From assembly GCA_030639985.1 (NCBI GenBank), contig DAOWKG010000142.1:1-11205 (forward strand): a stretch of DNA of 11,205 nt. Direction: 5' to 3'. Source of the stretch: Desulfuromonadaceae bacterium. GTDB lineage: Bacteria > Desulfobacterota > Desulfuromonadia > Desulfuromonadales > Geopsychrobacteraceae. The notes below the pieces were generated by a model that saw nothing but the letters and a program-made list of their open reading frames with translations, searched no databases and was not told the DNA's origin. Below, piece by piece: positions 2-10,626 of this stretch. Numbering within the stretch: position 1 is the stretch's first letter; each line of letters begins with the position of its first letter. Made by a program: the position numbers and the translations under genes.

Positions 2-118
2 CTGATTTTGCAGGCGTTAAGTCAGAGTGGCGGTAACAAGAAAGAGGCGGCGCGGATGTTGAATCTGAAGCGGACAACCTTGATTGAAAAAATAAAAAAG
101 AAGAATTTGCCCGTATAA
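2..118 (+). CDS. C-terminal fragment of a Fis-type HTH protein, probably a sigma54-dependent transcription activator
   Basis: Only the last 38 codons are inside the window; the frame is open to the left edge and stops at TAA 116-118. The peptide contains SGGNKKEAARMLNLKRTTL followed by IEKIKKK, which is the Fis/NtrC-type helix-turn-helix: the G-N-x3-A-A-x2-L first helix and the K-R-T-T-L recognition helix. In NtrC/FleQ-type enhancer-binding proteins this is the extreme C-terminus, after receiver and AAA+ domains. Those domains are not visible here, so the family is inferred from the tail alone. The gene converges on the chemosensory operon with about 12 bp between stop codons. A sigma54 activator beside a chemotaxis cluster could regulate motility or surface genes, but no sigma54-type promoter was recognised in the window. 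Confidence 0.8.
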   Translation: MILQALSQSGGNKKEAARMLNLKRTTLIEKIKKKNLPV

Positions 119-130: not shown

Positions 131-2002
131 TCAACTCGCTTTTTTGAAGTGGGTAGTTACCTTATTTTGAATTTCATCATTGCTGGCGGGCATAATCAAA
201 ATATCTTTGGCCCCATATTTTACTGCCCGCAGTACTGCTGAGCGAGTCCATTCCGGTCCGGCAAAAATGATCGGTGGTAATGGCTGCCCTGCCGATTGTA
301 GTTTGATTGCCGAGGCAAATCCTTTTTCTCCCACCTGAGTCATAATCAAAATAATTCCGAGGATTTTATGATGCTGAAATTGTTCTCGCACTTCATCCTG
401 AAAAGTTAAAACCTGACATTCTAATCCGGCTGACGATAATATTTCGACAAATGGGGCGGTAGCGGTCTCTTGATCACTGATCAGAAGGACAACCGGTGCT
501 CCGGTTGGTTCCGCTAGCGGTTGTTTTGCTGTTGTCGCTCCAACGGCCTCTCCAGCAGTTGTTGGTGTTGCCGGTGGGCCACCCCATTCCCCCAGCGCTG
601 GTTCAGGAGCTGTAGCCGCTGCTGGGGTTGTTGCTGTTGCTTCAGCACTGGCAGTGTTATTGGCACTGGTTTCTGTGCTGGCCTGAGCTGTTGCTGGTAG
701 GTCGTCAAGTTGAAAAACTTCGGCGGGGAAAATCAGCAGTATGCGCTGCAATTCAAACCCGTCCATGGTAATGGCAAACGATGCAAGGTAGTAATTGCCT
801 TCCGGAAATGGTTCTTCCGAAGCCGTATCAACCTTGGTTGGTACGACTGTTTCCGATTCGGTTCTGATGAAACGCAACTGCTGGGGATAACGATCGAGAA
901 AAACTTGCGTGAGGCCACCAGCAAGGATGTTGGCAATTTCACCGTAAGCATCTTCCGTTTCACCATCAAGGTTTGCCGCTGCTCTCTGTTTTTCAATTTG
1001 ATCTTCAGGGAGCATGATTAAGGTGCCGCCGAGAGCAACGGCATCGGGAACCTGAACGCACATGAAGCCCCGTCCCTCACGCTCACCGGTTACATTTAGA
1101 CGGGAAAAGACCGACTTTTCAATACAATGGTTAGAGAAAAAATCGGCTTTACTGGTCATTAGCAGTTGGACATCGCTACATTTAAGGGGTTGACCGAGCA
1201 ATGCACCAATTTCTTCACCTAGTTGACCGATGGTGGCATTAAAGACCACGTCGGTGAGTTTTTTTGCATCGGCAAATGGTGGCCGCGGTGGTGGCGGCGG
1301 AGCTGCTGCCGGTTCCGGGGTAGCTTCCTCGGTTGCGGTAACGGGTTCCGGCTCTGGAGTTGGTTCTGGTGCGGTGGTTACCGGTTCTGGTTTCGCTTCC
1401 GGTGTTGCTGCCGGTGTATCTGCGCTAGTTTCTTCGAGATCAAATATTGCTGCTGGAACTACAAATTCCTGAATTCCGAGGTCTGTCTCGCCAAAGGCCA
1501 TATTGCAGCTGGCAACATAGTAGTTGCCGGGAGGAAATGGTTGATCGCTGGCGGGATCAATTTTTGTCGGGATCAGTTCTTCAACCGATTGTTTTATGAA
1601 GCGGAGACTTTTATTGTATTTATCGACAAATGATTGGGTGTAAACACCGGCAATAATATTGGCAACCTCACCAAAAGCATCTTCCAATTCACCATCGAGT
1701 TTTTCAGCATTGGCGCTATCTTCAATGACATCTTCGGGAAGCATGATCAGGGTGCCAGCCAGGATAGCAGCGGCAGAGATCGAGTTGAGCAGGTAGCAAT
1801 TGCCTTCACGATCACCTTCAACGGACATTCTGTTAAGGGCAGTTTTTTTACGTTCGAGATTGCTGAACAGATTGTCTTTGGTGGTGAGGGTTAATTTAAT
1901 ATCAGAACAGATCAGATCCTGCCCCAGCAGCATGCCAATTTCGCTGGCAAGTTTTTCAGTGCCAGTCTTGCAAACGACATCTATGATAGCTCGATGATCC
2001 AA
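131..2002 (-). CDS. Double CheX/CheC-like phosphatase-fold protein with C-terminal degenerate receiver domain
   Basis: The 623-residue protein has two homologous CheX/CheC-like domains at about 1-192 and 243-435. A Pro/Glu-rich linker (193-242) separates them, and an Ala/Thr/Pro-rich linker (436-502) leads to a receiver-like domain at 503-620. Each CheX-like domain keeps the phosphatase signature D-x3-E-x2-N (D108/E112/N115 and D351/E355/N358). The following proline lies 29 residues after N (P145, P388) rather than the 21 of its neighbours. The last domain has the receiver layout but M554 replaces the phosphoacceptor Asp, M604 the conserved Lys, and the Thr/Ser site is A581/G582, so it should not be phosphorylated. 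No signal peptide or membrane segment is seen. The start is TTG at 2002 with AGAGG five bases upstream; the first internal Met is already inside the domain. It is the last gene of the che operon. Role inferred: scaffold or phosphatase acting on the CheY proteins. Confidence 0.75.
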   Translation of the reverse strand: MDHRAIIDVVCKTGTEKLASEIGMLLGQDLICSDIKLTLTTKDNLFSNLERKKTALNRMSVEGDREGNCYLLNSISAAAILAGTLIMLPEDVIEDSANAEKLDGELEDAFGEVANIIAGVYTQSFVDKYNKSLRFIKQSVEELIPTKIDPASDQPFPPGNYYVASCNMAFGETDLGIQEFVVPAAIFDLEETSADTPAATPEAKPEPVTTAPEPTPEPEPVTATEEATPEPAAAPPPPPRPPFADAKKLTDVVFNATIGQLGEEIGALLGQPLKCSDVQLLMTSKADFFSNHCIEKSVFSRLNVTGEREGRGFMCVQVPDAVALGGTLIMLPEDQIEKQRAAANLDGETEDAYGEIANILAGGLTQVFLDRYPQQLRFIRTESETVVPTKVDTASEEPFPEGNYYLASFAITMDGFELQRILLIFPAEVFQLDDLPATAQASTETSANNTASAEATATTPAAATAPEPALGEWGGPPATPTTAGEAVGATTAKQPLAEPTGAPVVLLISDQETATAPFVEILSSAGLECQVLTFQDEVREQFQHHKILGIILIMTQVGEKGFASAIKLQSAGQPLPPIIFAGPEWTRSAVLRAVKYGAKDILIMPASNDEIQNKVTTHFKKAS

Positions 2003-2027: not shown

Positions 2028-2133
2028 TAAGAACCTGTCTGGAAATAAGTTAGACAATTTCGCCCTTAAATTCAGGTTGCCTACCCTGAAGGTATAGTGC
2101 GAGATGTTTAAACTATTTACGGACAGTTCCTTA
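2028..2133. repeat. About 106-bp imperfect palindrome, MITE-like or IS-end-like
   Basis: Bases 2028-2056 and the reverse complement of 2105-2133 match at 22 of 29 positions without gaps. At the exact centre (2080.5) sits an inner hairpin, TTCAGG (2071-2076) with CCTGAA (2085-2090). The outer arms read TAAG-AACCTGTCTGG and TAAGGAACTGTCCG. A 7-bp direct repeat AGTTAAG occurs at 2025-2031 and 2133-2139, overlapping the arm ends, as a target-site duplication might. The right arm supplies the TAA stop of the upstream cheX gene. No transposase is present. It could be a small non-autonomous transposon remnant, a regulatory dyad or an mRNA-folding element; the family was not identified. Confidence 0.55.
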
Positions 2134-2589
2134 GTTAAGGTTATATTTTATTTCGATAAAAAATTGCCCCGATTCAACCTGAAATGGAATAATCACCCGG
2201 TTATTTGTTTTCGGTGGCGCAATTGTATATGATTTACCCGTAACAGCAGTCGGAATTGCCAGTTGCAGCATCAGGTCTTCTTTTGCAAACCGTTCTTTTA
2301 AACCACCGGCGACCATATTGGCGATCTCTCCGAGTGTATCTTTGACATCGGCATCAATCGTCTCAAATTCCATCCCTAGCATCGCTCCGGCAATTGCCAG
2401 ACCCACTTCTTCTGGGCAGTGAATATTGAGCATCGCGGCAAAGCTACCGGTCAGCCCGATCATTGCAGTTATATGACCACCGATGTTATGCTTGCTTTGT
2501 TCAAGTGGTTTTGCCGCAGAGATATCCATGAAAATCATAGTACTAAATATCTCTTCGGTTGTTTCTACGATTTTTTTAGCAAATTCCAC
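2131..2589 (-). CDS. cheX: CheX-like CheY-phosphate phosphatase (tandem copy, distal)
   Basis: The 152-residue cytoplasmic protein matches the CheX fold and length. The signature D84-x3-E88-x2-N91-x21-P113 is intact; in the CheC/CheX/FliY family the Glu and Asn insert into the CheY active site and promote hydrolysis of the Asp-phosphate. The N-terminal FSTMIFMD segment and the PTAV segment after P113 are typical of the family. The start is GTG (2587-2589) with AAGGA seven bases upstream. It is a clear paralogue of the next gene upstream: same length, same motif positions and FSTMI in both. That points to tandem duplication. A 38-bp gap separates the two, and the downstream side runs directly into the palindrome. 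Substrate inferred: one or both CheY proteins of this operon. Confidence 0.85.
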   Translation of the reverse strand: MEFAKKIVETTEEIFSTMIFMDISAAKPLEQSKHNIGGHITAMIGLTGSFAAMLNIHCPEEVGLAIAGAMLGMEFETIDADVKDTLGEIANMVAGGLKERFAKEDLMLQLAIPTAVTGKSYTIAPPKTNNRVIIPFQVESGQFFIEIKYNLN

Positions 2590-2627: not shown

Positions 2628-3086
2628 CTATGATTGACTGATTTGTAGTTCGACCATGAAGGTATGATTATCGAAGGTAAAAGGGACTGTTATTAATTCA
2701 GCATCAGCAAGACAGTCAATCGTATATTCTTGTCCATGTATTGCCGATGGCATTGATAGTTGGACTTTGCTACCACCGGGGTCAATGGCTGCTTTTAAGC
2801 TGCCACCAAGCATGTTTGCCAGCTCACCAATGGCATCACAGACATCTTCATCAACGTCCTCAACGTCCATTCCCAAAAAAGCGGTAGTAACTGCTAGGGC
2901 CGTTTTTTTAGGAAGGTGAATTGCTAGCATCCCTTTAATATCACCCGCTAACCCAACAATGCCTGAAACGCTATCTTCTAATTTACTATTGGTGCGGCTA
3001 AAAGATTCCCCTGCAGATACCTCCAGCATTATCATCGTGGAAAAAATCTCTTTGGTTGCAGCGGCGATGTCTTGAACGTATTTCAC
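2628..3086 (-). CDS. cheX: CheX-like CheY-phosphate phosphatase (tandem copy, proximal)
   Basis: This 152-residue CheX-family protein has the signature D84-x3-E88-x2-N91-x21-P113 at exactly the same residue numbers as its downstream paralogue. It shares FSTMI near the N-terminus and the GELANMLGG helix around the catalytic pair. It is expected to dephosphorylate CheY-P in the cytoplasm. The start is GTG (3084-3086) with AGGAG six bases upstream. It lies 57 bp downstream of cheY, separated by the strong hairpin at 3108-3132, so CheY and a probable phosphatase are neighbours on one transcript but may not be made in equal amounts. The loop between N91 and P113 contains DPGGSK, while the paralogue has AKEDLM there. 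Surface loops like this could distinguish partners, but that is inference. Confidence 0.85.
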   Translation of the reverse strand: MKYVQDIAAATKEIFSTMIMLEVSAGESFSRTNSKLEDSVSGIVGLAGDIKGMLAIHLPKKTALAVTTAFLGMDVEDVDEDVCDAIGELANMLGGSLKAAIDPGGSKVQLSMPSAIHGQEYTIDCLADAELITVPFTFDNHTFMVELQISQS

Positions 3087-3143: not shown

Positions 3144-3515
3144 TTAAAGTAGTGGTCCTAGAGTTTCATTGATCAGGTCGGGTGTGAATGGTTTTTTGAT
3201 CGCCCCTTTGGCACCATATGATTTTGCTTCGTCAATAATATCAGCACCGGTCTCGGTAGAGATCATAATAACCGGAATGTCCTTTATGGCATCGTCTTCA
3301 GATTTGGCTTTGAGAAACTCCAAGCCAGTCATGTTGGGCATATTGATATCACTAAGGACAACATCTACCTGATTGGCATGGAGGACATCGAGTGCTTCCT
3401 GGCCATCTGCAGCTTCAAGGATTGAATCAAAATCGATTCCTGCTTGACGTAATGACCGGGCCACAATTTTACGCATGGTGTTTGAGTCATCAACGATGAG
3501 GACAGTTTTACCCAT
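3144..3515 (-). CDS. cheY: CheY single-domain response regulator
   Basis: The protein is 123 residues, a stand-alone receiver with all key residues: acidic pair D9/D10, phosphoacceptor D56 in LSDINMP, S86 after the IMI strand, and K108 in KKPF. The usual aromatic switch position (Tyr106 in E. coli CheY) is A105, so its signalling switch may differ from the enteric form. It is expected to take phosphate from CheA and control the output. The start is ATG with GGAG seven bases upstream. It sits between CheX-like genes on both sides, which suggests it is a substrate of these phosphatases. An 88-bp AT-rich gap precedes it; no convincing promoter was found there. Confidence 0.92.
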   Translation of the reverse strand: MGKTVLIVDDSNTMRKIVARSLRQAGIDFDSILEAADGQEALDVLHANQVDVVLSDINMPNMTGLEFLKAKSEDDAIKDIPVIMISTETGADIIDEAKSYGAKGAIKKPFTPDLINETLGPLL

Positions 3516-3603: not shown

Positions 3604-4083
3604 TTAATTATCTTTTAACGCAACCAGAGAAGCTCCAGTAGCAAAAATTTGGATTGCATCTTCCTCGCTGGTCATAAGCTTCCAGACAATGGTACTGGCA
3701 TCAACTTCGGGCACTTTTTCGTTGTGACTTTCTGGTAGCCCAATTTTGTATTCTTGATTATCGGCAAGCAGATTGGTCATGAACAGCCCGACAATGGTGT
3801 TGAGAAGTTCATTAAGGATGTCATCCATCTGCTCTGGTTCGATTTCATCATCATCCAGAGAAAAAATATTCCCGGTTAGCTTTCGTAACAGGGTTTTGGT
3901 CATCGCAAATTTGATCTCTCCCTGGATTGGATCATTAATCAGGATGCTGTTGCAAACTACATCGTCAGCAGGGAGTTCATAGGCGCTATCAAAATGTTCC
4001 ATAGCTTCCATGAAAACCATGTTTTCCAGAGTCTGACTTACCGCCGTGATCATTGCTTGGTAGAGTGGTTTATGTTCGATCAT
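3604..4083 (-). CDS. cheX: Divergent CheX-like phosphatase
   Basis: The 159-residue protein is only distantly similar to the two tandem cheX products, yet has the same active-site geometry: D88-x3-E92-x2-N95-x21-P117. The N-terminal LENMVFMEAMEH segment also resembles the CheX family. An acidic stretch (LDDDEIEPEQMDD, about 76-88) leads into the catalytic helix. It probably acts on CheY-P; its divergence suggests a different CheY partner from that of the tandem pair, which is inference. The start is ATG 4081-4083 with GAGGAG upstream. It lies 29 bp after the cheY-like gene and 88 bp before cheY, so it is flanked by the two receivers of the cluster. An uncharacterised CheX/CheC-superfamily protein is the safe minimal label. 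Confidence 0.78.
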   Translation of the reverse strand: MIEHKPLYQAMITAVSQTLENMVFMEAMEHFDSAYELPADDVVCNSILINDPIQGEIKFAMTKTLLRKLTGNIFSLDDDEIEPEQMDDILNELLNTIVGLFMTNLLADNQEYKIGLPESHNEKVPEVDASTIVWKLMTSEEDAIQIFATGASLVALKDN

Positions 4084-4112
4084 ATGGTTATCTCCTCATG
4101 CCTTTGCGTTGG

Positions 4113-4487
4113 CTATTCATCAATAAAATCGGCAAGAGCTTCCATCATCACTGGTGGTGAAACTGGTTTGTTGAGAACCCGATGAGCTCCAAGCTCCAAC
4201 AGTTGTTTCTCTTTTGCCGGGTTGCCAGCACTGGAAATTACAACAATCGGTAAATCTGCAAGTTTGGGGCTTGCTTTCACCCATTTGACCAAGGTTTCAC
4301 CATCCATGACCGGCATGTTCAGATCGGTCAACAGCAGATCAACCGGTTCCTTTTTAGCAACGGCAAGTGCCTCTTTGCCGTGTTCCACTTCAATTATTTC
4401 AGCATCCCCAAGCCCGATTATTTGTAGACAGCGCTTGATAAACATTCGGGCAGTGGCTGAGTCATCAGCGATAAGGATTCGTTTCAT
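4113..4487 (-). CDS. Second CheY-like single-domain response regulator
   Basis: The protein is 124 residues, a complete receiver domain with acidic pair D8/D9, phosphoacceptor D55 in LLTDLNMP, S85 and K107 in NKPVS. It is clearly distinct from the other CheY in the cluster (different loops after S85, and HRV before the Lys-Pro). No output domain is attached. Its start codon overlaps the stop of the HDOD gene by one base (TGATG), so translation of the two is probably coupled. That hints it is matched in amount to the HDOD protein. It could be a second output regulator, a phosphate sink, or a partner for the HDOD protein or for the CheX-like protein encoded next. Confidence 0.88.
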   Translation of the reverse strand: MKRILIADDSATARMFIKRCLQIIGLGDAEIIEVEHGKEALAVAKKEPVDLLLTDLNMPVMDGETLVKWVKASPKLADLPIVVISSAGNPAKEKQLLELGAHRVLNKPVSPPVMMEALADFIDE

Positions 4488-5365
4488 CAGGTTTCATCTC
4501 CCGAGTTGTTAAGTGAACTTTCCAATTTTTCAAATTCTATATCAACATTCAACATGACGGTTGCGAGGCTGTTCGGGGTGATATTTATATAATTTTTATA
4601 GTTATTATCAAGTTTGTAACGCATGCTATCTGAGCCGGTTCCGAAGCCACCCATCATGGCGATGTTGTCACCAAGGTGAACTGCGTAGACCAGTAGTCGG
4701 TACTCTTCTTTGGCGTTCGCTGGATTGTGATGATGCCGAATAACTTCGGCGAGTTCCTCCGGTAGCTGCCACGCTTTAGCCAATTCGTAGCCTGCTTGGG
4801 TATGGTCAAAGCCCACCAAGATTTCTTCCGCATCAAGATAGTTGAGCTCTTCTTCGGCGGAGACTATTTCTACCGCATCAATAACTGATCCCTGTAAATA
4901 GTCTGAAATTAGTGCTTTACCGATGTCGTGGAGTAACCCCGCCGTAAAAGCGAGAGCCGGATTTAAGTCGACGCCACTTTGAAAAACAACTTCACGAGAA
5001 GCAATGGCGGTGCGTAAATCGTGTTTCCAGAGGTCTCCTCCCGCAGCTTCATAGCCGGAAAGTTCTTTTTGAAATAATTTTCCGGCACAATCTCCTATCG
5101 CTATACTGACGATAATGCGTTCGCCAAGATATGAAATTGCCCGATCTATGGACGTAACCTTGTTGACCAAACTGAATGCGGCCGAATTGACTACCTTAAG
5201 GACGCGGGCGGTAAGGTTGGCATCGTTTCTAACCAGATTGATAACATCAATGAGATCGTGATCTTCTTTAGCCGTAAGCTGCAGTAATTGACTGGCGCTA
5301 GCTGAAAGCATCGGCACCGATGTAACTATTTTTTGCAGCTCTTCATGACTGATTTTTTTTGTCAT
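4487..5365 (-). CDS. HDOD-domain signalling protein
   Basis: The 292-residue protein is nearly all HDOD domain. It starts with the typical VPMLSASASQLLQLTAKEDH segment (about 17-36), followed by a VLKVVNSAAF helix at about 55-64 and the AISYLG segment near 76-81. Many HDOD proteins have lost the HD-hydrolase residues, but here an H...HD...D set is kept (H115, H146-D147, D233), with additional H188 and H211-213, so metal binding or hydrolase activity is conceivable. HDOD proteins are known as adaptors in signalling and stress control, often near two-component genes. The start is ATG 5363-5365 with AGGAGG six bases upstream; that site overlaps the end of cheD, ten bases away. The TGATG overlap with the following receiver suggests they work as a pair. 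Confidence 0.9.
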   Translation of the reverse strand: MTKKISHEELQKIVTSVPMLSASASQLLQLTAKEDHDLIDVINLVRNDANLTARVLKVVNSAAFSLVNKVTSIDRAISYLGERIIVSIAIGDCAGKLFQKELSGYEAAGGDLWKHDLRTAIASREVVFQSGVDLNPALAFTAGLLHDIGKALISDYLQGSVIDAVEIVSAEEELNYLDAEEILVGFDHTQAGYELAKAWQLPEELAEVIRHHHNPANAKEEYRLLVYAVHLGDNIAMMGGFGTGSDSMRYKLDNNYKNYINITPNSLATVMLNVDIEFEKLESSLNNSGDET

Positions 5366-5375
5366 TGTCAGCCTC

Positions 5376-5864
5376 CTAAAGCTGCCAGTTTGGTTTTCCG
5401 GGCGAGCTGAGGGTTATTTGCCCTGCGGCAACGGAAATTGAGACAGTCCTACTGAAGTTTTTCCCTAAATCTTCGGCAATGGCACCCATGCCGTATGACC
5501 AGAGAATTTTTTTAATTGCCAGTGCATTACGTTTGCCAATTTGAAAGGTATCGTTAGTGTCCATGACGTTAGCTCCCCCGCAAAGCTTGACGATCATCCC
5601 TTTTCCCCGTTTGTCACAACCAAACTTGCTCATTTTAGTCAACAGTGCAGGGATAGCTGTGTCGGCAAAGTAGCCCGGTTTTTCTGCCGCTTTGGCTTTG
5701 TTGATTGAAGAATCTGGCAGGGCTATATGTGCCATACCGACAGTTCTACTTTTAGGATCAAGGAAGATTACCGAAACGCAGGAACCCAGGGCGAAAGTTT
5801 TAACTACGTCCCCAGGAGAGTTTGACGCACCGTAATCACCAACTCCCAATATTATTTGCCCCAT
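5376..5864 (-). CDS. cheD: CheD chemoreceptor glutamine deamidase
   Basis: The 162-residue protein has the CheD catalytic set in the right spacing: C29 in LGSCV, H46 in AHIALP, and T23 six residues before the Cys. This mirrors the Cys27-His44-Thr21 triad described for Thermotoga CheD. It converts specific receptor glutamines to glutamate, so that methylation sites mature or receptor activity is tuned. The GGANV motif near residue 96 and the N-terminal LGVGDYG are also typical. Its ATG directly abuts the cheB stop codon, with GGAGAG upstream inside the end of cheB. CheD is classically controlled by CheC, but no cheC occurs in the window; only CheX-like proteins do, so its regulation here is open. 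Confidence 0.95.
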   Translation of the reverse strand: MGQIILGVGDYGASNSPGDVVKTFALGSCVSVIFLDPKSRTVGMAHIALPDSSINKAKAAEKPGYFADTAIPALLTKMSKFGCDKRGKGMIVKLCGGANVMDTNDTFQIGKRNALAIKKILWSYGMGAIAEDLGKNFSRTVSISVAAGQITLSSPGKPNWQL

Positions 5865-6917
5865 CTATTTTCTCTCCGTGAGCAAGCTTAATAGTGATGC
5901 TGCAATTTTGTCCAGAGGCACTAATTTTTCTGCCCCCCCTTTTTCGTAGGCAACTTTTGGCATGCCAAAAACTATCGATGACGCCTCGTCCTGAGAAATA
6001 CAACGAGCGCCAGCCTGTCTCATTGCCAACATTCCGTTAGCGCCATCTTGCCCCATTCCCGTCAGCATGGCACCAACTGCATTGCTGCCAACATGTTTTG
6101 CTATGGAGTGCATCATGACATCGACTGATGGACAATGGCCACTTACTTTTTCATCGGTGCCGAGGCTGACTTCATAAAAACCACCGCGGCGGATAACCTC
6201 AAATTGTTTGCCGCCGGGGGCAATGAGAATCAGTCCCGAGCGAACCCGGTCACCATGTTCGGCTTCTTTTACTTGCATCTGACAAAGTTGATTGAGGCGT
6301 TCGGCGAACATTTTAGTGAAACCACCGGGCATGTGTTGGACAATTACTGTGCCGGCAGTGGTTGCCGGGAACTTTTCAATTACCTGCCGAATCGCTTCGG
6401 TGCCACCGGTTGATGCCCCTATCGCAATGATTTTATCGGTCGACTCTGCCAGTGCTGAAGATGAAGATCGACTTGACGGTGCCGTTAAACGTTTGCCTTT
6501 CCAATGGGAAACGTTAGCGGTTGAAGCAATTCTTACTTTAGTGCGTAGTTCTGCCAACATGGCATTTAGACCGCTAGCAACATTGCTGGTTGGTTTGGCG
6601 ACAAAATCTACCGCCCCCGCTTCCAATGCTTCCATAGTGATTTGCTTGCCACGTTGAGTCAATGAACTGACCATCACGATAGGAATTGGATATTGTGGCA
6701 TCAACTTCCGCAGGAATGCAACTCCATCCATGCGCGGCATCTCAACATCAAGGGTGAGAACGTCGGGATGTAGGCGGACAATCATGTCTCTGGCAATGTA
6801 GGGGTCAGCTGCAGTACCAACCACCTCAATACACGGGTCAATGGAGAGCCCCTGACTGAGGATATTTCTGACCAGAGCCGAGTCATCGACGATGAGAACA
6901 CGTATCGGTGGTGCCAT
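5865..6917 (-). CDS. cheB: CheB receptor methylesterase / response regulator
   Basis: The 350-residue protein has a receiver at about 1-120 (D11/D12, phosphoacceptor D57, K108) joined by a Ser-rich linker (about 145-160) to a methylesterase domain. The catalytic triad is S169 in GASTGG, H195 in VQHMPGGF and D291 in GMGQDGANGM. Each is five residues later than Ser164/His190/Asp286 of E. coli, so the enzyme looks intact. It removes methyl groups from, and can deamidate, receptor glutamates when phosphorylated by CheA. The ATG overlaps the cheR stop (TAATG), giving coupled expression of the opposing methylation enzymes, and its own stop abuts cheD. Confidence 0.97.
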   Translation of the reverse strand: MAPPIRVLIVDDSALVRNILSQGLSIDPCIEVVGTAADPYIARDMIVRLHPDVLTLDVEMPRMDGVAFLRKLMPQYPIPIVMVSSLTQRGKQITMEALEAGAVDFVAKPTSNVASGLNAMLAELRTKVRIASTANVSHWKGKRLTAPSSRSSSSALAESTDKIIAIGASTGGTEAIRQVIEKFPATTAGTVIVQHMPGGFTKMFAERLNQLCQMQVKEAEHGDRVRSGLILIAPGGKQFEVIRRGGFYEVSLGTDEKVSGHCPSVDVMMHSIAKHVGSNAVGAMLTGMGQDGANGMLAMRQAGARCISQDEASSIVFGMPKVAYEKGGAEKLVPLDKIAASLLSLLTERK

Positions 6918-7813
6918 TATCCTTCCCCTTTTTGGTAAAGGGCAGGTTTTAAATAGCGGTATAATGCTTGGTCACGCCCTAAGGTTTCCGAATGGCCAAT
7001 AAAGAGGTAGCCATCTTTTTCGGTATGTTTATGATAGCGGTTGACCAAGGCATCTCTGGTGACTTGATCAAAATAGATCATTACGTTACGGCAAAAAATC
7101 ATTTGAAACGGTTTTTTGAAGGGGAAAGTAGTATTCATCAAATTGAAGCGTCTGAAGGTAGTTTCTTTTTTGATTTTGTCTATTACCTGCATCTCTCCTG
7201 CCCCTGCCGGCGCGAAATATTTCTTTCGCAATGGATCCGGTAGCTGCATTACCCGATCGGTAGCGTAAGCACCGCGTCTGGCGACCGTTAATGCTCGGTC
7301 GGAGATATCGGTTGCCAGAATGCCAGCATCCCAGTTTTTATAATCGTTGCCCAAATATTCCATCATCAGCATCAATAGAGTGTATGGTTCTTCGCCACTG
7401 GAGCAGCCGGCGCACCAGATACGTAAATCTTTCCGATTCTCTCTTTTCAGCTTTTCAATTACTGCTGGCAACGCGGTTTCAGAGAAGTAGGTAAAATGCT
7501 CTTTCTCCCGGTTAAAGTAGGTGTGATTGGTAGAAATAAGATCAACCAGTTCACTAAGAGCTGCTTCGGTTTTATCGTTGTCGAGATAGTCAAAATAAGC
7601 AGCAAATGTTGGCAGCTGCCGTTGGCGGATGAGCTTCTGCAATCTGCCTACCAGCAGCGAACGTTTTTGTTCTGTCAAGTTAATCCCAAAACGTTTATAG
7701 ATCAGATCACGAATATGTTTAAATTCGGAATCTGAAATGGCCATCATGCCACTGCTTGGCTGCATGTTCATCGATGGTTGTTTCTTTCCGTTATTAATCT
7801 TCCGTTTTTTCAA
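6917..7813 (-). CDS. cheR: CheR receptor methyltransferase
   Basis: The protein is 298 residues from the TTG at 7813. It has an N-terminal helical CheR domain (FKHIRDLIYKRFGINL and following) and a SAM-dependent methyltransferase domain. Visible motifs are TNHTYFNRE (95-103), the SAM-binding CAGCSSGEEPYT (134-145), TDIS with D169, and FCRNVMIYFD (240-249). It methylates glutamates of chemoreceptors, opposing CheB. The start is uncertain. TTG at 7811-7813 overlaps cheW by 20 bp and has a weak GGA upstream. An ATG at 7769-7771 (residue 15 of the long form) lies 22 bp after the cheW stop with GGAAAG about 12 bases upstream. Both retain all known domains. Methylation implies receptors encoded elsewhere in the genome. 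Confidence 0.95.
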   Translation of the reverse strand: MKKRKINNGKKQPSMNMQPSSGMMAISDSEFKHIRDLIYKRFGINLTEQKRSLLVGRLQKLIRQRQLPTFAAYFDYLDNDKTEAALSELVDLISTNHTYFNREKEHFTYFSETALPAVIEKLKRENRKDLRIWCAGCSSGEEPYTLLMLMMEYLGNDYKNWDAGILATDISDRALTVARRGAYATDRVMQLPDPLRKKYFAPAGAGEMQVIDKIKKETTFRRFNLMNTTFPFKKPFQMIFCRNVMIYFDQVTRDALVNRYHKHTEKDGYLFIGHSETLGRDQALYRYLKPALYQKGEG

Positions 7814-8294
7814 TCAAATCCAACATTTCGCCACTGAAAAGTAATTTATTAATATTCAGTAGGATCTTAACATCATTATTGATTTTACCCATCCCCTGGA
7901 TGTAGTTGTCGTCGTTGTTTTTACTGGTTTTTGGTGCTGGTTCAACGTCAGCTTCAGGAATGTCGGCAACTTCGCTAACTTCATCGACAACCAGACCCAC
8001 TTCGGTTGTGTCAATATTTACCACAATGATACAGGTTCGCTCGTCGTAGGCGCGCGCTTCAAGCCCAAATCTGGCTCTGACATCCATAATCGGAATAACT
8101 TTACCACGCAGGTTGATGACTCCACGGATGAAGTCGGGCATGTCAGGGACATCGGTAATATTTTGAATGCCAATAATTTCAATAACGTATTGAATTTCGA
8201 TACCGTAATCTTCACCAGCAAGGTGAAAAGTCAGATACTTGTCTTTCTGCGTGTCTTCAGTTTCATAATTAGATAAGGTTGTCGCTTCAGCCAC
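7794..8294 (-). CDS. cheW: CheW coupling protein
   Basis: The 166-residue single CheW domain links receptors to CheA in the signalling array. The diagnostic RGVINLRG segment is at 57-64, followed by VIPIMDVRARFGL, and a VGLVVDEVSEVADIP strand-turn at about 99-113. The start is GTG 8292-8294, with AGGAGG five bases upstream inside the last codons of cheA; the two genes overlap by 8 bp. Residues 120-135 form a hydrophilic loop rich in Lys, Asn and Asp. It is the only stand-alone CheW here; a second CheW-like domain is the P5 of CheA. Confidence 0.96.
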   Translation of the reverse strand: MAEATTLSNYETEDTQKDKYLTFHLAGEDYGIEIQYVIEIIGIQNITDVPDMPDFIRGVINLRGKVIPIMDVRARFGLEARAYDERTCIIVVNIDTTEVGLVVDEVSEVADIPEADVEPAPKTSKNNDDNYIQGMGKINNDVKILLNINKLLFSGEMLDLIEKTED

Positions 8295-10626
8295 GGATTC
8301 CTCCTTTAAGTATCAATTCTTGTTGTGCTTCGTATTTTCTTTTTTTATTTTCTGCTGACTCAATCAGTGTACCGACATCCAGGATTAGACAAACGTTACC
8401 GTCGCCGAGGATGGTACAGCCGGAAACACCAGCAATATTACCAATGTAGTTAGATAACCCCTTGATAACGGTCTGCTGCTGGCCAAGAATTTCGTCAATG
8501 AAGAGGCAAAAACGGGTATCCTGATATTCGAGGACAATCAAAATACCGTCATCGAGGTTGCTTGAATCTGGTTTTTTGCCCAAGATTTCGTGAAGCCTGA
8601 TCACGGGGAGGAAGTTCTCTCTAACTTTTGCGAGCTCATCGCCATCTGGAGTGATGGTGATTTGATCCATTGCCGGCCGGTAGGCTTCAAGCATAGACAG
8701 GGTTGGAACAATACAAGTGGCTGAGCCAACTCTTACAATCATGCCGTCGATAATTGCCAAGGTCAGTGGAATTCGCAAAATTATTTTGCTGCCCTCTCCC
8801 GGGGTACTGTAGACATCGATCTTACCTTTGATTTTTTCCAGATTTTTCTTGACCACGTCCATGCCGACGCCACGTCCTGAGATGTCGGTAATTTTTTCTG
8901 CCGTAGAAAAGCCTGGCGCAAAAATCATATTATTGATCTGCTTATCGGTCAGGTCGTCAATCTCGCTAGCTTCGATAATGCCGTTAGCAAGGGCTTTTTC
9001 GAGGATTCTTTCTTTATTCAATCCGCGACCGTTGTCTTCAATCGTCACCCAGACTTCGCCCTCTTCGTGACGAGCTGAAAGGGTAATTGTCCCTTTTTCA
9101 CCTTTTCCTGCTGCCAGGCGTTCGTCAGGGGGTTCAAGGCCGTGATCCAGAGAATTGCGCAACAGGTGAACCAAGGGATCGGTTATTGTTTCGATTACAG
9201 TTTTGTCAATCTCAGTTTCTTCGCCGATCAATACCAGCTCAACTTTTTTGCCCGCTTTAACCGAAATATCATGAACCAGACGGATCATGCGGCGGAACAA
9301 GCCCGATACCGGAATCATCCGGATTGTCATTGCCATTTCCTGAAGCTCACGCACCAGTTTTGACATATGTTGGCCGGCCTTGTTGAAGTTTTCCAGTTCT
9401 AACCCTTTAAGGTCAGGGTTGTGGATAAGCATATTCTCAGCAATAACCAGTTCGCCGATCAGGTTGATCAAGCTATCCAGTTTGCCTAACTCGACCCGAA
9501 TATCCTGGCGTTTTGCTGGAGTCTTAGTCCTGACGGCAGGTTTGGCCGCAGCTTTGGACTTGTTGATGGTCTCTTGTTGCTTTTTTAGTGCCGTTGTAAC
9601 TTGCACAGTTGATGCGGAGCCCTGTTCTACCAGTATCTCCCCGACCGGTTTTTTCTGGGTTTCAACCGCCTTGCTGATGGCTTGTTCTGTAACTCCTTCA
9701 TCAACCAGGAAATCTCCCAGTAGCGGGGCAATAAGCTTTTGTAGATCCATGAGGTGCTGGTCAAGGTTTTCAACTGTGTCATCTTTGCCATCAGAAATAT
9801 TATTTACCCCCCGTTGTAAAACATCAAGCGAGGCGAGGAGTTGATCGGCGGGGTTTTCAACTGCTAATTTAGAACCAGCTTTGGCTCGATCAAGGACATT
9901 TTCCATTTGGTGCCCAAGTTTTTCGAGATGGGAATAGCCGAAAAAACCACAGTTGCCTTTAAAGCTATGGACGTTGCGAAAAATATCGCTGATGAAATCG
10001 ATATCACCAATATTGTCGCCCCATTCGAGTAAGCCCTGCTCAGTGTTTTGCAGAAGTTCGTTGCTTTCCTGGACAAAGCTCAGGCGCATTTCATCGGTAA
10101 TCTCTATCGCCGGGAGGGCATTTGGATCCAGTATTGGTGAAGCTGATTGCTTGGCGGGCTCTTCAGGTGCCGGCTCACTGGCTTCTGCCGCTGGTGCTTC
10201 ATCTGTCTTGCCACCACCCTTGGCTACTTCAATGGCATCGTGCAGGCGTACCGATATCTCATCTGCTGGTGTGACCATGGCATCATCGATGTAGTCATTT
10301 TCAACCATGTCGAGGGCCTCTTTGGCAAAATCACACGCTGCACAAAGGAGGGTGACGTGATCCGGAACCAAGCTGATTTCACCGTTACGAATTAGATCTA
10401 GAAGGTTTTCGGCTGCATGTGCAACCCTGGTCATATGATCAAATTCCAGGAAGCCGGCACTTCCTTTCATCGAATGAAATAACCGGAAAATTGAATTTAT
10501 AATTTCAGGATCGCTGTCTTGACCTAGTTCGATGATCGCCGGTTCCAGCTGTTCGATCATGTCCCGGCTCTCAGTTACAAATTCCTGAATAATTTCAATT
10601 TGATCGTCGTCGATAGGTGTACTCAT
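8287..10626 (-). CDS. cheA: CheA histidine kinase with two Hpt domains
   Basis: The 779-residue cytoplasmic kinase has these domains in order: Hpt1 (about 8-115) with phosphorylatable H51 in HSMKGSAGF; an Ala/Glu/Pro linker (about 138-170); Hpt2 (about 176-280) with H220 in HSFKGNCGF; a segment at about 301-350 with two motifs resembling the MshEN/GspE-N repeat; the P3 dimerisation helices (about 375-440); a catalytic ATPase with N box (HLLRNSLDHGLE, 487-498), G1 DNGRG (531-535) and GRGVGMD (584-590); and a C-terminal CheW-like P5 (about 620-760). A classic P2 CheY-binding domain was not recognised. It autophosphorylates and passes phosphate to CheB and the CheY proteins. The start is ATG 10624-10626 with AAGGA six bases upstream. 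It is the first gene of the operon. Confidence 0.96.
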   Translation of the reverse strand: MSTPIDDDQIEIIQEFVTESRDMIEQLEPAIIELGQDSDPEIINSIFRLFHSMKGSAGFLEFDHMTRVAHAAENLLDLIRNGEISLVPDHVTLLCAACDFAKEALDMVENDYIDDAMVTPADEISVRLHDAIEVAKGGGKTDEAPAAEASEPAPEEPAKQSASPILDPNALPAIEITDEMRLSFVQESNELLQNTEQGLLEWGDNIGDIDFISDIFRNVHSFKGNCGFFGYSHLEKLGHQMENVLDRAKAGSKLAVENPADQLLASLDVLQRGVNNISDGKDDTVENLDQHLMDLQKLIAPLLGDFLVDEGVTEQAISKAVETQKKPVGEILVEQGSASTVQVTTALKKQQETINKSKAAAKPAVRTKTPAKRQDIRVELGKLDSLINLIGELVIAENMLIHNPDLKGLELENFNKAGQHMSKLVRELQEMAMTIRMIPVSGLFRRMIRLVHDISVKAGKKVELVLIGEETEIDKTVIETITDPLVHLLRNSLDHGLEPPDERLAAGKGEKGTITLSARHEEGEVWVTIEDNGRGLNKERILEKALANGIIEASEIDDLTDKQINNMIFAPGFSTAEKITDISGRGVGMDVVKKNLEKIKGKIDVYSTPGEGSKIILRIPLTLAIIDGMIVRVGSATCIVPTLSMLEAYRPAMDQITITPDGDELAKVRENFLPVIRLHEILGKKPDSSNLDDGILIVLEYQDTRFCLFIDEILGQQQTVIKGLSNYIGNIAGVSGCTILGDGNVCLILDVGTLIESAENKKRKYEAQQELILKGGIRG
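8300..8304 (-). promoter_or_regulatory. Ribosome binding site for the GTG start of cheW
   Basis: GGAGG on the minus strand, five bases before GTG 8292-8294, embedded in the Gly-Gly-Ile-Arg-Gly codons that end cheA. It fixes a non-ATG start and indicates translational coupling of cheA and cheW. Confidence 0.65.

Follow-up and report, generated by a model that had tools for sequence, protein, structure and literature searches.

A CheC/CheX/FliY-type phosphatase fused to an aspartate-less pseudo-receiver, a candidate CheY-P phosphatase of flagellated Desulfuromonadia

The DNA analysed here (the window) is a stretch of 11,205 nucleotides from the genome of a Desulfuromonadaceae bacterium, which is assembled as 2.06 Mb in 345 contigs. 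It carries a che operon of 12 same-strand genes, spaced by -20 to 128 bases, in the order cheA, cheW, cheR, cheB, cheD, HDOD, cheYb, CheX-like (c), cheYa, cheX (b), cheX (a) and, as the last gene, a fusion. This fusion was read from a TTG start in the open reading frame 131-2002 of the minus strand and encodes a protein of 623 amino acids. The features are the following:

131..2002, minus strand: fusion gene, CheX/CheC-type domain 1, linker, domain 2, linker and pseudo-receiver (ORF reading and Pfam)
1427..2002, minus strand: D1, residues 1-192, CheX/CheC/FliY-type domain (Pfam, alignment, profile search)
1658..1669, minus strand: catalytic pair of D1, E112-x-x-N115 (invariant in 34/34 aligned domains)
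1277..1426, minus strand: linker 1, residues 193-242, P/E/A/T = 88% (composition)
698..1276, minus strand: D2, residues 243-435, CheX/CheC/FliY-type domain (Pfam, alignment, profile search)
929..940, minus strand: catalytic pair of D2, E355-x-x-N358 (alignment)
497..697, minus strand: linker 2, residues 436-502, with GEWGG at 471-475 (homologue alignment, composition)
134..496, minus strand: pseudo-receiver, residues 503-623 (AlphaFold2 and alignments)
242..250, minus strand: W585-T586-R587 at the start of alpha4, family signature (W and T in 38/38, R in 37/38)
2131..2589, minus strand: CheX (a), 152 aa (Pfam)
2628..3086, minus strand: CheX (b), 152 aa (Pfam)
3144..3515, minus strand: CheYa, canonical receiver, likely substrate (Pfam and locus comparison)
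3604..4083, minus strand: CheX-like (c), 159 aa (Pfam)
4113..4487, minus strand: CheYb (Pfam)
4487..5365, minus strand: HDOD protein (Pfam)
5376..5864, minus strand: CheD (Pfam)
5865..6917, minus strand: CheB (Pfam)
6917..7813, minus strand: CheR (Pfam)
7794..8294, minus strand: CheW (Pfam)
8287..10626, minus strand: CheA with two Hpt stretches (Pfam)

The TTG start codon of the fusion gene (2000-2002) may be kept, as a TTG was picked at a similar position in 8 of 20 relatives, and an AGAGG lies 5 bases ahead of it. At the other end of the gene, positions 2-118 (plus strand) hold the 38 last codons of a reading frame resembling the end of a converging sigma-54 activator; a gene for such an activator with a Fis-type HTH converges on the fusion in all six loci tested (L033, L034, L037, L038, L041 and L045). 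A second CheX-CheY pair, CheXc and CheYb, is encoded in the same operon (3604-4487). All five CheX matches of the genome fall in this che operon. The genome further contains five MCP matches, two CheA-type dimerisation domains and one FliM, whose N-terminus starts EKILSKEEISDLL and resembles a CheY-binding peptide. P2, the CheY-binding domain of CheA, was not among the Pfam matches of the window CheA (8287-10626) at E 0.001.

The initial annotation had described two phosphatase-fold domains on one 623-residue chain, joined by Pro/Glu-rich linkers to a receiver-shaped domain. This was borne out. D1 and D2 are 45% identical, far beyond shuffled sequences, both retain the catalytic pair, and both linkers are rich in Pro, Ala, Glu and Thr. 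The Pfam CheX score of the whole protein is 37.5 bits (gathering cut-off 27; two stretches matched), and each stretch alone reaches 23.9 and 20.2 bits, below the cut-off. Of 8000 candidates scored in a homologue search with the fusion, 200 proteins passed E 0.001 and 120 were listed; among the matches listed, the Glu-x-x-Asn motif is present twice in 120/120 homologues. Asp108, Glu112 and Asn115 are invariant in 34/34 aligned phosphatase domains. When a profile of these 34 domains was compared to solved sequences, the best match was 4hyn (E 1.3e-4 for the whole sequence; E 0.007 for the best single stretch, positions 3-175 of 192). CheC (1xkr) was matched with E 7e-4 and CheX weakly (E 0.26), while the comparison of the profile with 26 single CheX proteins gave an HH probability of 95.8% over 72 columns. 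We read 4hyn, deposited as a CheC/FliN fusion, as FliY. The sequence profiles make D1 and D2 candidates for the CheC/CheX fold; judged by its Pfam score and catalytic pair, the fusion is a member of the CheC/CheX/FliY phosphatase family. Enzymes of this family act by placing an Asn and an acidic residue in the active site of the receiver (PMC3035606).

Within this family the fusion differs from CheX, FliY and CheC. With CheX (PF13690; solved from Thermotoga, Borrelia and others) it shares the Pfam family, the Glu-x-x-Asn pair and the CheY gene context. However, its domains are about 190 aa long, often two per chain and joined to a pseudo-receiver, whereas the solved CheX chains have 155-172 residues; an identity as CheX proper, a stand-alone protein of about 150-160 aa, was rejected on the same grounds. 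With FliY, the CheC-type phosphatase of the flagellar switch (4hyn), the fusion has in common its best solved-sequence match and the link to flagella. Yet Pfam lists no FliN-type domain among its matches up to E 10 (CheX, Response_reg and CheC only), which rules out FliY, and the pseudo-receiver stands at the C-terminus instead. The likeness to CheC is the profile match to 1xkr, but only the Glu/Asn of the second pseudo-repeat is recognisable in each domain of the fusion. In a two-domain relative (L111, genome G327) the catalytic Asn is gone from both domains; no CheYa or CheX match was found beside it.

A GEWGG-type motif in linker 2 (window 578-592) occurs in at least one copy in 92 of 119 homologues and in two or three copies in 16 of 119, among the matches listed; it is absent from residues 181-260, the linker 1 region, in all 119. 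A docking peptide is a possible role of this motif.

The C-terminal domain was predicted by AlphaFold2 to adopt the (beta-alpha)5 receiver fold (pLDDT 91), in line with the receiver shape proposed earlier. The loss of the acceptor Asp, the Lys and the Thr/Ser, also noted in the initial annotation, is a property of the close homologues as well: among the matches listed, the acceptor column is Met in 119/119, the Lys column is without Lys in 119/119 and the Thr/Ser column is Gly in 117 and Ala in 2. Pseudo-receivers have been defined as receivers without at least one of five residues, with an aspartate-less subset that lacks the Asp (PMC12632262). On its alignment columns, the C-terminal domain is a pseudo-receiver of the aspartate-less subset. 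The VIA and Foldseek lists for this domain contained ordinary receivers, and no named pseudo-receiver family was prominent in them.

Across 38 loci, conservation in the pseudo-receiver is highest in alpha4 (3.41 bits), the beta4-alpha4 loop (3.28) and beta5 (3.10), and lowest in beta2 (1.38) and alpha1 (1.59 bits). In CheYa of the same loci the values are 4.32 for beta3, 3.98 for alpha1 and 3.20 bits for alpha4. In the pseudo-receiver, conservation is shifted away from helix 1, which is the side for kinase docking, and towards alpha4-beta5. A decaying or chance receiver was ruled out by this conservation. The alpha4-beta5-alpha5 surface is described as a common working face of pseudo-receivers (PMC12632262).

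Forms of the fusion from another taxonomic order within the class keep two adjacent acidic residues in 8/8 rows and the Lys in 114/119, but have Ser or Gly at the acceptor column, and hence the loss of the acceptor looks older, from these alignments, than the loss of the remaining receiver residues. An Asp is found 2-3 residues past the acceptor column (W minus 30) in 117/119 of these forms, with further Asp at W minus 28 (117/119) and minus 27 (119/119); in L042, L045 and L046, relatives that belong to the window's order, an Asp lies one residue past the Met/Phe column. Since other rows have Thr or Asn there, we provisionally took none of these neighbouring Asp residues as a left-over acceptor. 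We also searched for free-standing pseudo-receivers with residues 500-623 as query, which gave 12 proteins of 70-211 aa among 14 candidates. Eight of the 12 come from contigs that are 544-1295 bases long, two more carry a 'partial' label, and P0241 and P0246 have no such explanation; given the short contigs and partial labels, there is no good evidence for a free form.

The fusion is not peculiar to one genome but is a family conserved across the class Desulfuromonadia, where a phosphatase-plus-receiver profile matches 199 of 277 genomes (E 1e-8). The closest named relatives of the window are Desulfuromusa records. The databases give members no name, 'hypothetical protein' or 'response regulator', and one automated label names both parts ('CheY-P-specific phosphatase CheC/CheY-like chemotaxis protein'). 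In the window's taxonomic order, CheYa and a CheX lie ahead of the fusion gene in 20 of 21 loci, L050 being the exception. They do so in 18 of 19 additional loci as well, 10 from the window's order and 9 from other families in the class; the one locus without them, L094, is at the end of a contig. Proteins of the window's order carry either one phosphatase domain, with a length of about 350-400 aa, or two, with about 580-670 aa. At the nine loci outside this order a one-domain form ends a cheY-cheX-fusion triad, without a CheA match in the examined stretch in 9/9. In three of three triad loci scanned, a gene for a TPR protein lies downstream and is followed by FlgC-like and/or FliF genes, and one triad genome encodes a protein that is identical to one of Trichlorobacter ammonificans (Geobacterales). 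The smallest constant partner set of the fusion is one CheY and one CheX. A phylum-wide profile search gave matches in 17 of 297 genomes; those in f51 and f62 comprise the phosphatase part only and were excluded from the family. In a more distant family of the phylum two-domain forms are found, with CheYa and CheX adjoining in 2/3. At L113 and L114, CheX and CheY have a neighbour of about 390 aa whose N-terminus is CheX-like and which seems to contain a CBS pair.

In domain trees D1 groups with D2 of its own family (f1 98/96, f5 100/99, f14 96/91), also when four more rows were added (f1 97/93, f14 96/90, f5 98/76); the pairs of f18, f21 and f39 were unresolved, and f19 was starred only in the constrained comparison of D1 with D2. 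A single ancestral doubling, with all D1 against all D2 (12 vs 12), costs 87 log-likelihood units (p-AU 1.8e-11) and was rejected. The trees suggest either several doublings or homogenisation of the D1 and D2 copies. Reversion to one domain is seen within the window's family at L050 (G024). Here the che operon is nearly gone and no CheYa was found, and a one-domain fusion, seemingly the start of D1 run into D2 and the receiver, persists near miaA.

Next to the gene neighbours, the distribution of FliM was compared with that of the fusion. FliM is present in 197 and CheA in 271 of the 277 genomes of the class. Fusion and FliM occur together in 192 genomes, the fusion only in 7, FliM only in 5 and neither in 73, an agreement of 265/277 with a Fisher p of 4e-52 that overstates independence, as genomes of one class share ancestry. 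In these counts 36 genomes beyond those listed were taken as lacking both, consistent with the overall tallies. For fusion and CheA the corresponding numbers are 198, 1, 73 and 5 (p 0.0075), and of the 75 genomes with CheA and without FliM only 7 have the fusion. Fusion and FliM were each found in 52 of 82 genera. Among the discordant genomes, two of the seven with the fusion and without FliM are more than 90% complete (G030 91%, G035 96%), as is one of the five with FliM and without the fusion (G002, 96%). These results indicate that the family tracks flagella and not chemotaxis in general.

In 34 of the 53 genomes with compared coordinates fusion and FliM lie on one contig, 12.5-27.5 kb apart, and in 19 on different contigs. 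A constant linkage to FliM does not hold in the window's family: FliM was found in 9 of 11 genomes searched. G022 has it on the contig of the fusion but 1.16 Mb away, and the other 8 have it on another contig; the remaining two genomes, G030 and G035, have the fusion and no FliM match. The window's own genome also has the two genes on different contigs. CheZ exceeded its cut-off of 30.7 bits in 0/60 genomes; two weak matches scored 20.7 and 20.5 bits. As the fusion is found mostly in flagellated bacteria, a part in ending the steering signal is probable.

The reading that we favour, and that we regard as reasonably probable, is that the fusion is a CheY-P phosphatase of flagellar chemotaxis in Desulfuromonadia and some relatives, with the pseudo-receiver as a permanently 'on' binding module. 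CheA would phosphorylate CheYa, and CheYa-P would travel to FliM. Each CheX/CheC/FliY-type domain would reach into the CheYa-P active site with its Glu and Asn and hydrolyse the phosphate, with up to two active sites per fusion chain. The pseudo-receiver, non-phosphorylatable and on a long tether, would use its conserved alpha4-beta5 face either to pair two phosphatase chains or to dock them at a site of CheY-P action such as the flagellar switch, so that the enzyme would wait at the site where CheY-P arrives. We infer hydrolysis and substrate from the catalytic residues, the gene context and the co-occurrence; the conservation of the pseudo-receiver alone points to a role that is probably docking or dimerising. 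With three more CheX-type proteins in the operon, the fusion is not the sole candidate phosphatase. A more specific and tentative version, which we would hold with considerable reserve, takes the pseudo-receiver to be a frozen CheY mimic which, without being phosphorylated, would anchor the phosphatase domains at the flagellar switch or on CheYa. The fusion would then be a modular counterpart of FliY whose number of enzyme domains was changed repeatedly by tandem duplication.

In chemotaxis a phosphate sink is a receiver that takes phosphate from CheA. The protein had initially been suggested to be a scaffolded 'CheY-phosphate sink'. The kept catalytic pairs predict that it can hydrolyse, but having no acceptor it cannot store phosphate, so that CheY-P could be drained by hydrolysis only; an anchoring of the phosphatase domains by the pseudo-receiver is a plausible suggestion. 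That the C-terminal receiver itself accepts phosphate from CheA is extremely improbable: the fold, the Lys kept in 114/119 of the other-order forms and the acidic residues near the site would agree with it, but in the close homologues among the matches listed neither the Asp nor the Lys is present in any of 119. It is more conceivable, if still unlikely, that the pseudo-receiver is a control domain through which a ligand, redox or oligomer change switches the phosphatase on or off. Pseudo-receivers regulated by ligand, disulfide or oligomer have been described (PMC12632262), and the domain stands at the end of a long flexible chain across the family. Rigid allostery, however, fits poorly with long low-complexity tethers, and no candidate ligand site was identified in the pseudo-receiver.

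Slightly less likely again is a scaffold or titration role. The phosphatase domains would then bind CheY-P (or CheD) but not usefully hydrolyse it, and the pseudo-receiver would link them to CheA or some other partner, an attachment already proposed in the initial annotation. The operon does encode CheA, CheD and three further CheX-type proteins, and the Pfam match of each phosphatase domain alone is weak; against this, both catalytic residues are invariant in the 34 aligned domains, and the triad lacks a CheA match at all nine other-order loci. The distance from FliM in the window's family, together with the seven genomes that have the fusion without a FliM match, could also suggest a chemosensory pathway with a non-flagellar output. 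This we consider improbable in view of the agreement with FliM in 265 of 277 genomes, the flagellar genes adjoining all three triad loci scanned and the rarity of the fusion in CheA-containing genomes without FliM (7/75).

The phosphatase and pseudo-receiver architecture, thought to be undescribed when the locus was annotated, was not described in the literature searched either; this is weak evidence, as open-licence papers only were covered. In the passages covered, no pseudo-receiver was described as fused to a CheY-P phosphatase. Aspartate-less and other pseudo-receivers (e.g. FrzS, ChxR and FleQ) share with the fusion a receiver fold without acceptor. In CheA-CheC/CheX fusions of Leptospirae a CheC/CheX domain is joined to a chemotaxis part as here, but this part is the kinase and not a pseudo-receiver (PMC10542144). 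For Desulfuromonas AOP6 and 2873T a 'unique type' of che cluster with cheA, W, B, R, C, D and X was reported upstream of flagellar genes. Among the strains of that study it was confined to those with flagella, and a role in flagellar function was conjectured; cheX and cheC genes are counted in the paper, and its che-cluster section mentions neither fusion nor pseudo-receiver (PMC8235581). This cluster is probably the same operon type as that of the window. Geobacter surveys give one cheX gene per genome in the passages covered of the 2008 paper (PMC2577667) and 1-4 in the rows covered of the 2021 paper (PMC8396549). As far as seen, the fusion is an uncharacterised variant of the CheC/CheX/FliY phosphatases with an aspartate-less pseudo-receiver.

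Many Desulfuromonadia, which comprise Geobacter relatives and iron and sulfur reducers, are flagellated, and CheZ is above the cut-off in none of the 60 genomes. The family is a strong genomic candidate for ending the CheY-P signal in the flagellated members of this class, and also offers a clear example of the purpose that a pseudo-receiver may serve. If the reading as a frozen mimic is true, a receiver would have become the address label of an enzyme that erases receiver signals.
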